The translations under genes were made by a program, and so were the position numbers. Of a DNA stretch of 7,512 nucleotides, positions 2,186 to 7,286 are shown piece after piece. Source of the stretch: Parabacteroides sp. (lineage in GTDB: Bacteria > Bacteroidota > Bacteroidia > Bacteroidales > Tannerellaceae); the NCBI GenBank assembly GCA_020026285.1, contig JAHHQS010000176.1, positions 1 to 7,512 on the forward strand, read 5' to 3'. Every line of letters begins with the position of its first letter. Within the stretch, counting starts at the first letter, position 1. The notes under the pieces are model-generated. The model worked only from the letters and a program-made list of their open reading frames with translations. It did not search any database and was not told the origin of the DNA.

Positions 2186-3127
2186 ATGAGTATTGATAAA
2201 AACAATCATTTGAGGGAAGTGCTAGACACTCACAAGATGTGTCACGTCCAGGATTTCGTGAATAAAGTAAAAAAACGTAGAGAAGAGATTAAAGCCAAGG
2301 TGCACAACCATTATGGTAGCGACAAGTATCCATCGTTTGGATCTGGCAGTTTTGCTAAGCATACCGCCACCAATGTGAAGTTTGACCTTGATTTGGTGGA
2401 GCCGTTCAAGCGTAATGCTTTCAGAACATTACAGGAGATGTTTGATAGCGTAAATAATTTCCTTACAGAGGAATATAAGAATACTGGTGTGACTATTCGC
2501 AGGCAAAAGGTTTCAATCGGTGTAAGTTTCCCTATTGAAGAGGGAGATGAAAAGCCGGTTGAACTTGATGTGGTACCTGGAAGAGAACTAAGCGATGATG
2601 ATTATCTTGATTCGCATGATTTGAACCTATGTTTTAATGAGGACCATTGGGGGTTCAAAAAGGGAACAAGCCAAAAAACAAACATTCAGAAGCAGATTGC
2701 GCATATACAAGGTAAGGAAAGTGAGCGTCAGATTATCCGTCTGCTTAAAATATGGAAAAAGCAGAAGGATAAGAAATACAAATCATTCGTTATTGAACTG
2801 GCTGTAATAAAAGCTCTTGAGGGCTATAATGGTGATAAGGAGCTTTGGTCAAGGTTAAAATATACGATGGAGTATCTTCGTGACCACATAGCAGAAAGCA
2901 GTTTTCATCTTTATGACCCAGGCAACACAAACAATGATGTCATAGCAGCCATGCAAGACTACGATAGACAATCGTTTAAATCGGATATGGAGAGTATGCT
3001 TAATAACATAAGCTGTAATCCTGATTTCTATTTGCCTTACTACTTCAAGGCAAACGAGAAGTATTGTGGATATAAAGAGAAAAGTGTGGGAGCCGCTTAC
3101 CCAACAAGTGCAAAACGATTCGGATAG
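2186..3127 (+). CDS. cdn: CD-NTase-like nucleotidyltransferase (CBASS second-messenger synthase)
   Basis: This 313-residue protein of the cGAS/DncV-like (Pol-beta superfamily) group is expected to make a cyclic or linear oligonucleotide signal on phage infection. What I see: the nucleotidyltransferase loop FGSGS (51-55), the metal-binding pair D67-L-D69, and the third acid D128 in VELDVVPG. The C-terminal helical domain includes RLLKIWKK (185-192) and an OAS-like YDPGNTNND (243-251). All three catalytic aspartates are present, so it should be active. The loop after GSGS reads FAKHT, not the common xxGT, which suggests a divergent clade; I cannot assign a product or clade. The protein ends in KRFG, a free C-terminal glycine suited to conjugation by the E1-E2 protein encoded 8 bp downstream. 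AGAAGGA lies just ahead of the ATG. The neighbouring genes match type II CBASS strongly. Confidence 0.88.
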   Translation: MSIDKNNHLREVLDTHKMCHVQDFVNKVKKRREEIKAKVHNHYGSDKYPSFGSGSFAKHTATNVKFDLDLVEPFKRNAFRTLQEMFDSVNNFLTEEYKNTGVTIRRQKVSIGVSFPIEEGDEKPVELDVVPGRELSDDDYLDSHDLNLCFNEDHWGFKKGTSQKTNIQKQIAHIQGKESERQIIRLLKIWKKQKDKKYKSFVIELAVIKALEGYNGDKELWSRLKYTMEYLRDHIAESSFHLYDPGNTNNDVIAAMQDYDRQSFKSDMESMLNNISCNPDFYLPYYFKANEKYCGYKEKSVGAAYPTSAKRFG

Positions 3128-3135
3128 AAAAGAGT

Positions 3136-4791
3136 ATGATGACAGCAGATAGAATAAAGGAATTGATAGGTACTCTTTACGGAGTTTGTCTCGTTGATGA
3201 TTTTACTTTCAACGAGGCTGGTTCGTTGAAAGGACGTATTGCCGTAGCAACTGGTCAAAACAATGCTAATTTAGAATGGGAGGTAGAGATCAGTTCTACT
3301 TATCCGTTTAAAGTAATGGGTAGGGAATCTATATATTTTCAAAATAAGAATCTGCTGGACTATCCACATATTATGCAAGGCGGTAATCTGTGTATACATT
3401 CTGCAGAATATGAGAATGCTGAGATGCAGTTTGTGAATGACTTGAAACAGTTGAAAGAATGGGTAGAGAAATACTATGTAAGGGGAGAGAAGGATGTACA
3501 CTATGAGCATTTAGTGGTGAACCACTATCTGATTCGCGAACAATATTATACTTTTTGCTTCGCAGAGACTCAAGAAAACTTTACCGAAGGAGACTATGGG
3601 ATAGTAAACTATGCAGTGTTGCCTTCAGGTCGGAAAAATGACGCCCCCGTCATCAACTATGTGGCACAAAAGTTTGTATCGTGTGCGCAAGTGAAAAAGA
3701 AAGAATTCCTCTGTAAGATTAGTAAGTCCTACCAAAAATTAAGTTCATTTGACGGTGTATATTGTTTGCTGAATAACATACCATCGAAACATGCCAAATT
3801 TATTGTTGAGGATTATGATTCTATCAAAGCGTTGTTCTTACAGAGTCAGAAAAATTATATCTATAGTTTTGTGGTATCACATAGAGATTATACTTTCTTC
3901 CCGCTTTTCTGTGGATATAGAATTCCCGGAGGTGATGTTTATTGGCAGGTAATGATGCTCTTCATGGACGATTTGCCGATAAAACCAGTACGAGTGGGCA
4001 CCGGCAAAGACAGGATTTGGTTTACCGATTTTAAACAAGGGCTAATCCAATGGGCAGAAACCGTGGATATTTCATATAAGTATTTCTTTGGACGTGGAGC
4101 CATGCCCGAAGAACTGGCTAACAAGAAAATATTGATTATGGGCATCGGAGCTATAGGTAGTATTGTGGCTGAGACTTTAACAAGATGTGGCACGAAAGAA
4201 ATAATGCTCTGTGATATAGACAATAAAGAGCCAGGAAATGTTTGTCGGTCTGCCTATCCTTTTTATACGGGCATAACCGAGAAAACCTTGGATATGGAGA
4301 GTTTACTGACACAGATTTCGCCTCATGTTAAATGTGCCAGTTTGAAACCTATCGTCGACTTAGTGGTGAAAAAATATGCGGCAGAACATGAAGATAAAAG
4401 TAGTCTTGCGGAGTTATTTGACGAGTTTGATGTAATATTTGATTGTACTACGGATAATCAACTGATGCGGGTAATGGATTCTACGAAGACAAAAGCCCAG
4501 CTGGTTAATCTCTCAATCACTAATCACGCACAAGATTTGATATGTGCATTTTCACCTAATGTAACAGAGACCGTTTTGTTGGTATATGACTTACTTAAGC
4601 GCGATACGGAAACCGATATGTATAATCCTACGGGGTGTTGGAACCCGACTTTTAAAGCTTCATATAACGACATAGAATGTAAGGTGCAGTTTGCCATGAG
4701 CCATATTATCAGGATGTTGAGTCGGATGGAACCATTAAGTAATTTTTATATAACAGAAGACGATTTGAATTTAAAAATAAATAAGTTATGA
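3136..4791 (+). CDS. cap2: E2-E1 fusion protein, Cap2-like (ubiquitin-like conjugation of the CD-NTase)
   Basis: This 551-residue fusion combines an E2-like conjugating domain and a ThiF/E1-like adenylating domain, as in type II CBASS Cap2, which joins the CD-NTase C-terminus to a target and primes signalling. The E2 domain covers about residues 1-145. Its likely catalytic Cys86 lies in YPHIMQGGNLCIHS, equivalent to the HPNI..G..C segment of E2 enzymes, though the HPN triad itself reads YPH. A connecting region (about 150-320) leads through FFGRG to the adenylation domain: Gly-rich loop GIGAIG (336-341), D360-I-D362, GNVCRS (367-372) with the conserved Arg371, and D436. The best candidate for the E1 catalytic cysteine is Cys501 in GCWNPTF. 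ATG codons at 3136 and 3139 both follow the purine-rich AGAAAAGAG; the second has better spacing. The gene overlaps the JAB gene by four bases (ATGA), indicating translational coupling. Confidence 0.9.
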   Translation: MMTADRIKELIGTLYGVCLVDDFTFNEAGSLKGRIAVATGQNNANLEWEVEISSTYPFKVMGRESIYFQNKNLLDYPHIMQGGNLCIHSAEYENAEMQFVNDLKQLKEWVEKYYVRGEKDVHYEHLVVNHYLIREQYYTFCFAETQENFTEGDYGIVNYAVLPSGRKNDAPVINYVAQKFVSCAQVKKKEFLCKISKSYQKLSSFDGVYCLLNNIPSKHAKFIVEDYDSIKALFLQSQKNYIYSFVVSHRDYTFFPLFCGYRIPGGDVYWQVMMLFMDDLPIKPVRVGTGKDRIWFTDFKQGLIQWAETVDISYKYFFGRGAMPEELANKKILIMGIGAIGSIVAETLTRCGTKEIMLCDIDNKEPGNVCRSAYPFYTGITEKTLDMESLLTQISPHVKCASLKPIVDLVVKKYAAEHEDKSSLAELFDEFDVIFDCTTDNQLMRVMDSTKTKAQLVNLSITNHAQDLICAFSPNVTETVLLVYDLLKRDTETDMYNPTGCWNPTFKASYNDIECKVQFAMSHIIRMLSRMEPLSNFYITEDDLNLKINKL

Positions 4792-6053
4792 AATATTATC
4801 TGGCGAGTGATGATTTGTATATAGAGATACAGGCTTCTGTGTTCAACCAAATACAGTTGCAGGCTGAGGGAGAGTATCCAAATGAGAACGGAGGGATGCT
4901 CGCAGGACGATATTCCACAGATAGACATACGGTGTATATAGAAAAGGTTATAGAGCCTATGGAGAAAACAACTAGCAGGACAACCTTTATAAGAAACACC
5001 AAGGGTATGGAAAAAGTTTGGGAACAATTGGCCAATGATGGATTACGATACGTAGGTGAATGGCATAGTCACCCCAATTGCTCCACACAATATAGCGGTA
5101 CGGACTTATCAGCTATGGCAGATATTGAGAAAGAAGTGAACATTGAGAATCCATTATTACTGATAGTTAGTGTTAGAAGTGATGGGCTTAGTGGCCATAC
5201 TTTCTATTGTTATAATAATAAATTATTGGAATACAAAAAGATGGTGGATTTAAGAGAATTATTTCATGGCTTGCAAAAGCAGATGTTAGCAAGTCTATAT
5301 GTAAATAGGGAGTTTATTAAACATGCCCCCAGCAAGGGTGATGCTACAGAACAACATTGGATTGAATTTTTACGCACTTATCTTCCAGATAGATATAGGG
5401 TAGATAAGGCTATTGTAATAGATTCAACTGGTAATGTTAGCGATCAGATGGATGTAGTCATTTATGATGCAATTTACACTCCTTTCATATTCAAACAGGA
5501 TGGTTTTATGTATATACCTGCAGAAAGTGTGTATGCTGTGTTCGAGGTTAAACAAGATGTAGAAGGGAATATCGAATATGCTGCTCGGAAAATAGAGAGC
5601 GTGCGTAAATTGAAAAGAACAAGTATAGATATGGTCGCCTCAGGAATGATTAAGCCAGCCAGACCATTGACTAAAATAATTGGTGGTATATTAACTACGA
5701 CAAGTTCGTATAAAAATAATGAAACCATAGAAGAACATTTAATGACACTAAAAGGCTTACAGACATTGGACTTAGGATGTCTTTGTAATATGGGCAGTTT
5801 TTATGTAGATTATAATGAAACAGAACCTGAAGATATACACCCAACCAAAGATATCAACGATAACCGTAAGTATATAGATCTGGTATATGAGAGTCGCAAA
5901 GTAAAAGAAATTAAGTTTAGCGATAAGGATGTATCTATTTTCACATTCTTTCTTCAGCTTGTAAGCTATTTAAAGGCTATTGGTACTGTCCCAGCAATAG
6001 ATATCAATGCATATCTCAAGGCTATCAATGCAAAAATTGACGAAGATATTTAA
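4788..6053 (+). CDS. JAB/JAMM isopeptidase (Cap3-like) fused to a DUF6602-like PD-(D/E)XK nuclease domain
   Basis: The N-terminal domain (about residues 1-150) is a JAB/JAMM metalloprotease with every active-site element: Glu33 in ENGGMLAG, H93-S-H95-P, and S103-x-x-D106. In type II CBASS the JAB protein Cap3 removes Cap2-made CD-NTase conjugates, and that role fits here. Canonical Cap3 is a single domain of roughly 160 residues; this protein has 421. The extra part (about 160-420) resembles DUF6602: a helix with E188 (EQHWIEFL), LPDRYRV, then SDQMDVVIYD with D222, and AVFEVK with E253-V-K255. E...D...ExK is the PD-(D/E)XK nuclease pattern, so I infer a DNase-like domain. The last 130 residues are unassigned. 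Because the operon lacks a usual effector, this domain is an effector candidate. The start overlaps the stop of the E2-E1 gene. JAB is certain by motif; nuclease function is inference. Confidence 0.85.
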   Translation: MKYYLASDDLYIEIQASVFNQIQLQAEGEYPNENGGMLAGRYSTDRHTVYIEKVIEPMEKTTSRTTFIRNTKGMEKVWEQLANDGLRYVGEWHSHPNCSTQYSGTDLSAMADIEKEVNIENPLLLIVSVRSDGLSGHTFYCYNNKLLEYKKMVDLRELFHGLQKQMLASLYVNREFIKHAPSKGDATEQHWIEFLRTYLPDRYRVDKAIVIDSTGNVSDQMDVVIYDAIYTPFIFKQDGFMYIPAESVYAVFEVKQDVEGNIEYAARKIESVRKLKRTSIDMVASGMIKPARPLTKIIGGILTTTSSYKNNETIEEHLMTLKGLQTLDLGCLCNMGSFYVDYNETEPEDIHPTKDINDNRKYIDLVYESRKVKEIKFSDKDVSIFTFFLQLVSYLKAIGTVPAIDINAYLKAINAKIDEDI

Positions 6054-6105
6054 GAGTTAAAGTGATAGATAGCATTGTCCAAAATTCACTATCTTTACTA
6101 TGTGT

Positions 6106-6136
6106 AGAGTATGTGGTATAAAGCCTTAAATACTCT
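6106..6136. repeat. Small inverted repeat in the gap after the JAB gene
   Basis: AGAGTAT (6106-6112) and ATACTCT (6130-6136) form perfect 7-bp arms around a 17-nt loop, followed by the fairly T-rich TATTCTTGTGTTTT. It could act as a weak terminator or attenuator between the three-gene operon and the next gene. The long loop and short stem make this doubtful. Confidence 0.25.
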
Positions 6137-6144
6137 TATTCTTG
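6112..6144 (+). promoter_or_regulatory. Possible weak promoter for the HEPN-like gene
   Basis: TGTG (6112-6115), 21 bp, then TATTCTTG (6137-6144) matches the Bacteroidota TTTG / TAnnTTTG pattern with one mismatch in each box. It would start transcription about 20 bases ahead of the ATG at 6174. A second -7-like box, TATCTTTA (6090-6097), has no good -33 partner. Read-through from the upstream operon is equally possible. Confidence 0.3.
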
Positions 6145-6173
6145 TGTTTTAATATTAAAGAGATAATCGTTAA

Positions 6174-7286
6174 ATGAAAAAGTCTGATATATTTTGGCAA
6201 ACATATATGAACCTTGAAAAAGAGGTTGTAGAAATGGCAAAATACATTTTTATCACCGATGAGAAAATTATAAATAAAGGTGGTCAAGAAGTTGTCGAGT
6301 CGTGTTCATCGCAATTGTTGACATTTTCACCATATATAGCAGACCTGCTTATACGCTGTTGTGTTCAAATAGAGGCAATTTCAAAAGAGTTGTATTTTGA
6401 ATTCAATGGGCAGAAAGAAAGAGGCGATAGTACTATTAAATTTGATGAAGATTGTTTGAAAATAATAGATATGAAATGGGAAACTCATAACAAGCGTGTG
6501 CTTGTAGTTACCCCTTTCTTTAATTTGACGAAGGATGAGAATCGGGTATTGCGTCCTCTTAAAGAAGCCCATAAACGACAAGGAGCATATTGGGAAAGGG
6601 CCTATCAAGCCGTAAAGCATGATAGGTATTCTTGCTTACATATAGGCAATGTAAAGGCACTTATTCATGCATTAGCGGCTCTATATCTGTTAAATGTGTA
6701 TTATCGTAAAGAAACTTGGGTTATTCGATATCAGGATTTAGATAAGCAGGATTTCAGTATGGGGTCTGCGCTGTTTGCGGTGTTAAAGCCAAAAACCGAT
6801 CAATTATGGGAAGGAAATAATCCGGTAAAGAGTGAAAGCCCTTTTGTTGTCAGTTATGAAGATGATGTTTACAAACAGATAGATGATATAAGGTGTAAAG
6901 AATATGATGATTTAAATAACTATTGGAGGCAACAACCCGAATTACATGAGCCTGCATTCTTGGCTCAGTTGCAAGAAGCTTCCCAAAAAGAACAAAGGGT
7001 TATGCAAATTTGGGAACTGGCAAAATATAGACTCAATAAAGCCATACCACCAACATTGCCCTTTGCAGTGAGAAAAGAACATCTTATAAAAAGTGAAGCT
7101 TGGAATTGTTGGATAAATCAACATAACAAACATCTTGAGCCCGAAGAAATAACTGAAGAAAACATTCAAGACGAAATAAATATAGTTGGTGTAAGATGGG
7201 GTATGGAAATAATGAAGCGGTATCAAAAATTAGAATGGATACCAATTGCTATGAATAGTGGATTATGCAGAATATACATACCATAA
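6174..7286 (+). CDS. Protein of unknown function with a HEPN-like N-terminal half, candidate RNase effector
   Basis: This protein has 370 residues with no signal peptide or membrane segment. The N-terminal half (about 1-180) looks all-helical: FWQTYMNLEKEVVEMAKYI, then SPYIADLLIRCCVQIEAISKELYF (about 52-75), and WERAYQAVKHDRYSCLH (140-156) followed by an alanine/leucine-rich helix to about residue 177. R151 and H156 form an R-X4-H motif at the start of that helix, the signature of HEPN ribonucleases common in toxin-antitoxin and abortive-infection systems. I recall similar uncharacterised bacterial proteins carrying the VKHDR motif but cannot name a family. The second half (about 185-370) is unassigned and rich in charged and Trp/Tyr residues. 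AAAGAGA (6157-6163) lies 10 bases before the chosen ATG; the next in-frame ATG (6207) would remove a conserved-looking start of the first helix. It follows the JAB gene after 120 bp on the same strand, so membership in the system is likely but unproven. Confidence 0.7.
   Translation: MKKSDIFWQTYMNLEKEVVEMAKYIFITDEKIINKGGQEVVESCSSQLLTFSPYIADLLIRCCVQIEAISKELYFEFNGQKERGDSTIKFDEDCLKIIDMKWETHNKRVLVVTPFFNLTKDENRVLRPLKEAHKRQGAYWERAYQAVKHDRYSCLHIGNVKALIHALAALYLLNVYYRKETWVIRYQDLDKQDFSMGSALFAVLKPKTDQLWEGNNPVKSESPFVVSYEDDVYKQIDDIRCKEYDDLNNYWRQQPELHEPAFLAQLQEASQKEQRVMQIWELAKYRLNKAIPPTLPFAVRKEHLIKSEAWNCWINQHNKHLEPEEITEENIQDEINIVGVRWGMEIMKRYQKLEWIPIAMNSGLCRIYIP

Follow-up and report, generated by a model that had tools for sequence, protein, structure and literature searches.

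The short (+)-strand operon in the analysed window (the whole stretch of 7,512 nucleotides from Parabacteroides sp.) is very probably a type II CBASS system in which a Cap3-like isopeptidase and the effector nuclease NucC are made as a single protein (Table 1). The gene for this protein starts with ATG, at a 4-bp overlap with the Cap2 stop, and follows those for a CD-NTase and for Cap2. An initial annotation had placed a JAB isopeptidase and a DUF6602-like nuclease in one chain, downstream of CD-NTase and E2-E1 genes in a type II CBASS operon. Both points were borne out: Pfam recognizes Prok-JAB (63.1 bits, cut-off 25, residues 16–129) and DUF6602 (107.2 bits, cut-off 27, residues 174–275) in the same frame, which is open in 11/11 genome loci from one scan of species genomes, and Pfam and PADLOC identify the upstream genes. 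The residues singled out at that stage (E33, H93, H95, S103, D106, E188, D222, E253 and K255) all lie at the numbers then given.

Table 1 Positions of the operon, its domains and key residues in the window
Feature	Position	Strand	Basis or remark
AAA ATPase, upstream of operon	590–1972	−	AbiLi-like by PADLOC
CD-NTase (CBASS cyclase)	2186–3127	+	313 aa; PADLOC Cyclase PDLC00803, 286 bits; C-terminal Gly
CD-NTase C-terminal Gly codon, residue Cap2 would activate	3122–3124	+	Tail KRFG in 11/11
Cap2, E2-E1 conjugating enzyme	3136–4791	+	551 aa; PADLOC E1-E2 PDLC00852, 759 bits
JAB–NucC fusion protein	4788–6053	+	421 aa; Pfam, PADLOC and PDB matches, model
JAB/JAMM (Cap3-like) domain, residues 1–149	4788–5234	+	Prok-JAB
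JAMM Glu33 codon	4884–4886	+	E in 169/169 fusions among matches listed
JAMM H93-x-H95 ... S103-x-x-D106	5064–5105	+	Each residue 169/169 among matches listed
Seam Y149/K150: JAB end, NucC position 1	5232–5237	+	Ends of unfused relatives; model
NucC nuclease/cA3-receptor domain (predicted), residues 150–421	5235–6050	+	Sequence match
R202 = EcNucC R53	5391–5393	+	Alignment; R in 118/118 rows
D222, catalytic by alignment, = EcNucC D73	5451–5453	+	D in 118/118 rows (A5)
Y230 = EcNucC Y81	5475–5477	+	Alignment; Y in 118/118 rows
E253-V-K255, catalytic by alignment, = EcNucC E104/K106	5544–5552	+	E in 116/118 (D in 2), K in 118/118 rows (A5)
Clade-specific NucC insertion, residues 343–372	5814–5903	+	Absent in EcNucC, present in unfused relatives
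T400 = EcNucC T226	5985–5987	+	Alignment; T in 118/118 rows

A CD-NTase, an E2-E1 Cap2, a JAB domain and an effector lie together at 2186–6053, and by this gene content the operon is a type II CBASS system. The cyclase contains GS...DLD and LDVV motifs, which we take to have their usual roles in CD-NTases, and scores 21.8 bits with Pfam SMODS, under the cut-off of 26.5. By itself it matches no PDB entry by phmmer at E 0.01, and a profile built from its alignment (A3) finds E. coli MS115-1 CdnC (6p80) as best PDB match (E 2.2e-08). As the cyclase alone lacks a PDB match, the case for cA3 as the signal of the operon comes mostly from the effector, with the CdnC profile match as the sole other hint; cA3 would nonetheless be the signal we expect. 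For Cap2, the best solved relative is PDB Cap2 7to3 (E 1.2e-12), and the candidate E2 cysteine C86 (NLCIH) and E1 cysteine C501 (TGCW), both presumably catalytic, are invariant in 7/7 rows (A4). The cyclase tail reads KRFG in the window and in the ten loci that retain the cyclase 3′ end, and FG ends the cyclase in 6/6 relatives found via a flavobacterial Cap2; excerpts of PMC10097602 report a C-terminal Gly or Ala for cyclases of operons with full Cap2 and Cap3, and Gly occupies this position here in 11/11.

The JAB half is also matched by the PADLOC JAB model, and its E33, H93, H95, S103 and D106 are invariant in 169/169 fusion proteins among the matches listed; a JAMM site sits on a JAB fold here, as in Cap3. 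Because its score with the NCBIfam Cap3 equivalog NF050170 (25.4 bits) is far under the cut-off of 200, we call it Cap3-like and not Cap3 in NCBI's sense. This head would release CD-NTase from its conjugates.

By sequence match and predicted fold, the second domain is NucC, which is the exact name for the DUF6602-like nuclease part. It matches PDB 6p7o (NucC) with E 1.4e-45 over query residues 155–342, with a second piece at 384–411, and PADLOC scores it as NucC (187 bits, 148–415) and Effector NucC (303 bits, 151–415); its identity with the E. coli NucC of L023 is 40.9% (237 positions). The earlier PD-(D/E)XK assignment held up, D222, E253 and K255 aligning with D73, E104 and K106 of E. coli NucC (EcNucC) and so supplying the Asp, Glu and Lys of that motif. 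E188, D222 and E253 are invariant in 169 fusions and K255 in 168/169, among the matches listed. Neither of two refuting outcomes named beforehand, poor conservation of these residues or a fold foreign to nucleases, came about, the predicted fold of the nuclease half being that of NucC. The equivalents of R53, Y81 and T226 of EcNucC, which we take to be cA3-pocket residues, are all present. According to excerpts of two reviews (PMC10419184 and PMC10002423), NucC binds cA3 itself, which favours the earlier suggestion that one nuclease domain serves as receptor of the second messenger and as effector; the NucC part would form trimers, assemble into hexamers upon cA3 binding and cleave double-stranded DNA.

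In the working order that we favour, Cap2 would use the C-terminal Gly of CD-NTase to conjugate this enzyme to a target, and the JAB heads of the fusion would undo this conjugation. Upon infection CD-NTase would make cA3, which would bind the NucC part and let trimers pair into hexamers; these would cut double-stranded DNA and end the infection at the price of the cell. Excerpts of the literature report the NucC steps (PMC10419184 and PMC10002423) and both Cap2 conjugation and its reversal by Cap3 (PMC10097602 and PMC11153139) for relatives. The main effect of the fusion would be a fixed 1:1 ratio of deconjugase to effector, with three isopeptidase heads on the inactive trimer or six on the active hexamer, and this dosage, we infer, is the reason for the fusion.

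Two protein searches gave 169 distinct fusion proteins of 405–428 residues (best 120 of 3100 and best 120 of 2577), in a ranking by whole-protein score that favours fusions. These proteins, among the matches listed, and the open frames in 11/11 loci rule out a frame artefact or chance fusion. By record titles, the 11 loci are spread over several Bacteroidales families. At least parts of the cyclase and Cap2 genes lie 5′ of the fusion, in the same order, in 10/11 loci, L007 having a Cap2 remnant only. Four of the 11 (L001, L003, L007 and L011) have a disrupted or missing cyclase or Cap2, some of these being MAGs in which assembly errors are possible, and the fusion frame is open in every one. 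By these sequences the fusion can apparently persist for a while after its partners are gone, a pattern as if loss began with the cyclase side and then left the effector silent.

Within the order of the centre genome G002, 23/393 sampled genomes have a match and three have the full fusion (G002 itself, G003 and G006); the fused protein is rare. Across Bacteroidota, DUF6602 occurs at 44 places in 42/395 genomes, with the fusion known only in G002. The neighbourhoods of 20 of these 44 places, a sample that does not extend to the long frames in G100, G295, G032 and G273, hold no JAB in the nuclease frame (phmmer, E 1e-4; in L071 this test missed the nuclease itself), so that within this sample the fusion is ruled out as a general habit of NucC. 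None of the flavobacterial NucC relatives (best 120 of 659) has a JAB Pfam match. Among plasmids, 146 records match the fusion protein, none over 80% of its length, and the operon has no near DNA match; no phage record matched, and 27 pattern matches in viral contigs include no relative. The window Cap2 finds 79/395 genomes of the phylum sample at E 0.001, strongly in G002 and G095 only, the next best having E 7e-12.

The origin of the fusion can be read from unfused relatives. In the order of G095, a Flavobacterium by the name of an identical protein, a search at E 1e-20 finds this Cap2 subfamily in 6/395 genomes. Four of the loci (L130, L132, L133 and L134) carry cyclase, Cap2, JAB and NucC as separate genes in the same order; the fifth (L135, 1450–3597) shows that this operon family has a second kind of fusion, a Cap2–JAB protein of 715 aa followed by a separate NucC, and in the sixth genome the flank contains no match to NucC. 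In 5/5 relatives with NucC, the NucC frame opens with an ATG 8 bp before the JAB frame ends. In the alignment, unfused JAB frames end in ...YE-stop at fused Y149 and unfused NucCs begin with M(N/S).., then KI..LF, at fused K150, and therefore a whole JAB minus its last residue appears joined to a whole NucC. The best explanation of these sequences is that the fusion arose from adjacent genes of this overlapping kind, and such an overlap points to joint production of JAB and NucC even before they were fused.

The same overlap could mean that the tether is neutral, a workable accident in which each half acts on its own and nothing is gained from 1:1 dosage. We regard this as possible, if somewhat unlikely: by alignment, nothing is lost at the seam beyond the final residue of JAB and the start of NucC, and L135 shows that a different fusion has formed, whereas the fused NucCs are monophyletic and spread across several families, and no split form occurs among the best 120 of 3100 and best 120 of 2577 matches, in a ranking that favours fusions. 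Monophyly (7 rows, support 100/97) comes from trees of 20 hand-picked rows each, fused and unfused, and is the one result that we use, because long branches and weakly supported forks mark the trees of JAB and Cap2. In the NucC tree, fused NucC lies beside unfused NucC from type II, E2-only and type III loci (L059 and L061, with HORMA and TRIP13) in a larger clade (14 rows, 100/98), with a fork grouping the unfused neighbours at 84/86. The closest unfused NucC in the compared set is that of L058 (57.4%). L058 has a short type II-like arrangement (4317–6738) of cyclase, E2-only protein with SEC-C motif and NucC, and L056 (6475–8709, − strand) a 744-aa protein, encoded beside a NucC gene, whose residues 453–744 are a CBASS cyclase (PADLOC 388 bits).

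A tighter relation between the halves would be allosteric, the CD-NTase tail or conjugate on JAB controlling NucC hexamer assembly, or cA3-bound hexamers switching JAB. In the retained structure model, from an alignment of 32 fusions together with 86 standalone NucC rows, JAB ends in a strand (145–150) and NucC begins with a helix (155–176), some four residues apart; with 73 close fusions as input the nuclease was poorly modelled (mean pLDDT 64.6, below 50 at residues 154–247). This short spacing, the fusion in all 169 relatives among the matches listed, though the ranking favours fusions, and the docking precedent of a solved Cap3–CD-NTase complex (9ild, by title) speak for such coupling. The model has a pTM of 0.67, for which reason the relative placement of JAB and NucC is not trusted and no domain arrangement is defined. 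The roughly 30-residue insertion in NucC is ruled out as fusion-specific, being absent in EcNucC and present in the unfused NucC of L058, L059 and L061. Since relatives keep separate genes, L135 joins JAB to Cap2 and unfused NucC has the same insertion, the evidence leans against an obligatory JAB–NucC contact, and we hold coupling to be unlikely. The earlier proposal that JAB docks on the CD-NTase tail and holds the nuclease inactive found no support in any test run. We are equally doubtful that the JAB heads serve as a safety catch or feedback device, with bound cyclase blocking the NucC hexamer or six clustered heads altering deconjugation; if true, a single protein would link the state of conjugation with the cA3 signal and the destruction of DNA.

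Both halves are under selection and seem functional. Median dN/dS over 65/66 pairs of 12 nucleotide sequences (L008/L009 left out) is 0.12 for JAB (47 pairs with usable dS), 0.086 for NucC (34) and 0.258 for the insertion (49), with dS near saturation for many pairs. As the 73-row fusion subset is 71–90% identical to the window protein, conservation among fusions is weak by itself; the standalone NucC rows broaden the nuclease half. That the protein is an effector only, with a relic JAB as N-terminal scaffold, is very improbable: it would accord with the low score on NCBI's Cap3 equivalog model, against which stand the complete JAMM site in 169/169 among the matches listed, the JAB dN/dS, the JAB fold and the PADLOC JAB match. 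Against our own reading, of isopeptidase and effector as one working protein of a type II CBASS operon, count the Cap3 model score (25.4 of 200), the pTM, the cyclase without a PDB match and the disrupted partners in 4/11 loci.

An ATPase gene matching that of the window (phmmer) lies upstream of the cyclase in 11/11 loci and is of several kinds. The AbiLi-like one, on the opposite strand in the window, has a close match in L004; L010 and L011 have other kinds, and Pfam AAA_21 is found in L002, L010 and L011. In seven loci a 200-aa gene follows the ATPase and ends 20–24 bp 5′ of the cyclase; in L002, the one locus examined, it is Pfam RloB. Downstream, the ORF at 6174–7286 (+, 370 aa) belongs to no family recognized by Pfam, PADLOC or NCBIfam, lacks a counterpart in the 11 fusion loci, and is ruled out as an operon partner. 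At 2126–2157, 5′ of the cyclase, TTTG and TACATTTG were spotted by eye at 20-bp spacing, which we take to resemble a Bacteroides-type promoter; scans gave no excess of promoter-like (17 matches against a shuffle mean of 23.6) or terminator-like (1 against 2.6) patterns.

All parts of the fusion are already known. The nuclease half resembles NucC of E. coli MS115-1 (PDB 6p7o/6p7p; an effector of CBASS and type III CRISPR) in the whole domain, catalytic triad, presumed cA3-pocket residues and fold, and differs in lying C-terminal to JAB and in the insertion common to unfused Bacteroidota NucC. The JAB half shares fold, JAMM site and position after CD-NTase and Cap2 with Cap3 of type II CBASS (PDB 9ild), which is normally a separate small protein, whereas here JAB is the N-terminal third of an effector and far under the NCBIfam cut-off. 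The four loci with separate genes are alike in a CD-NTase ending in FG, the Cap2 subfamily, JAB, NucC and gene order; their JAB and NucC overlap by 8 bp, whereas those of the window are fused. PADLOC has models in which JAB is tethered to another CBASS part (SAVED5--SAVED_TIR_JAB, PDLC02013, and E1-E2 PDLC00827, whose last part matches JAB), so that tethered JABs are a known theme; the partner there is a TIR-SAVED effector or Cap2, in contrast to NucC here. The JAB–NucC pairing in one protein is new as far as the literature was searched: it is not described in the open-licence literature covered, a scope outside which lie the NucC structure paper, one Cap2 paper and surveys of CBASS and of nucleotide-centred systems, where mention is possible, and excerpts of PMC13424991, PMC11153139, PMC10952713, PMC7159879, PMC10419184, PMC10002423, PMC12409355, PMC10449497 and PMC10097602 do not mention it.

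Reports of what Cap3 does disagree: excerpts of PMC11153139 and PMC10097602 propose a restraint on cyclase priming for a V. cholerae system, and report raised immunity for one of B. cereus and a requirement against some phages only for one of E. coli. The fusion lineage cannot produce its effector without the isopeptidase, and close unfused relatives are available for comparison. One can ask here directly whether Cap3 and the effector must match in amount or place, and the lineage thus offers a natural handle on why anti-phage CBASS systems need their protein-unlinking enzyme at all.
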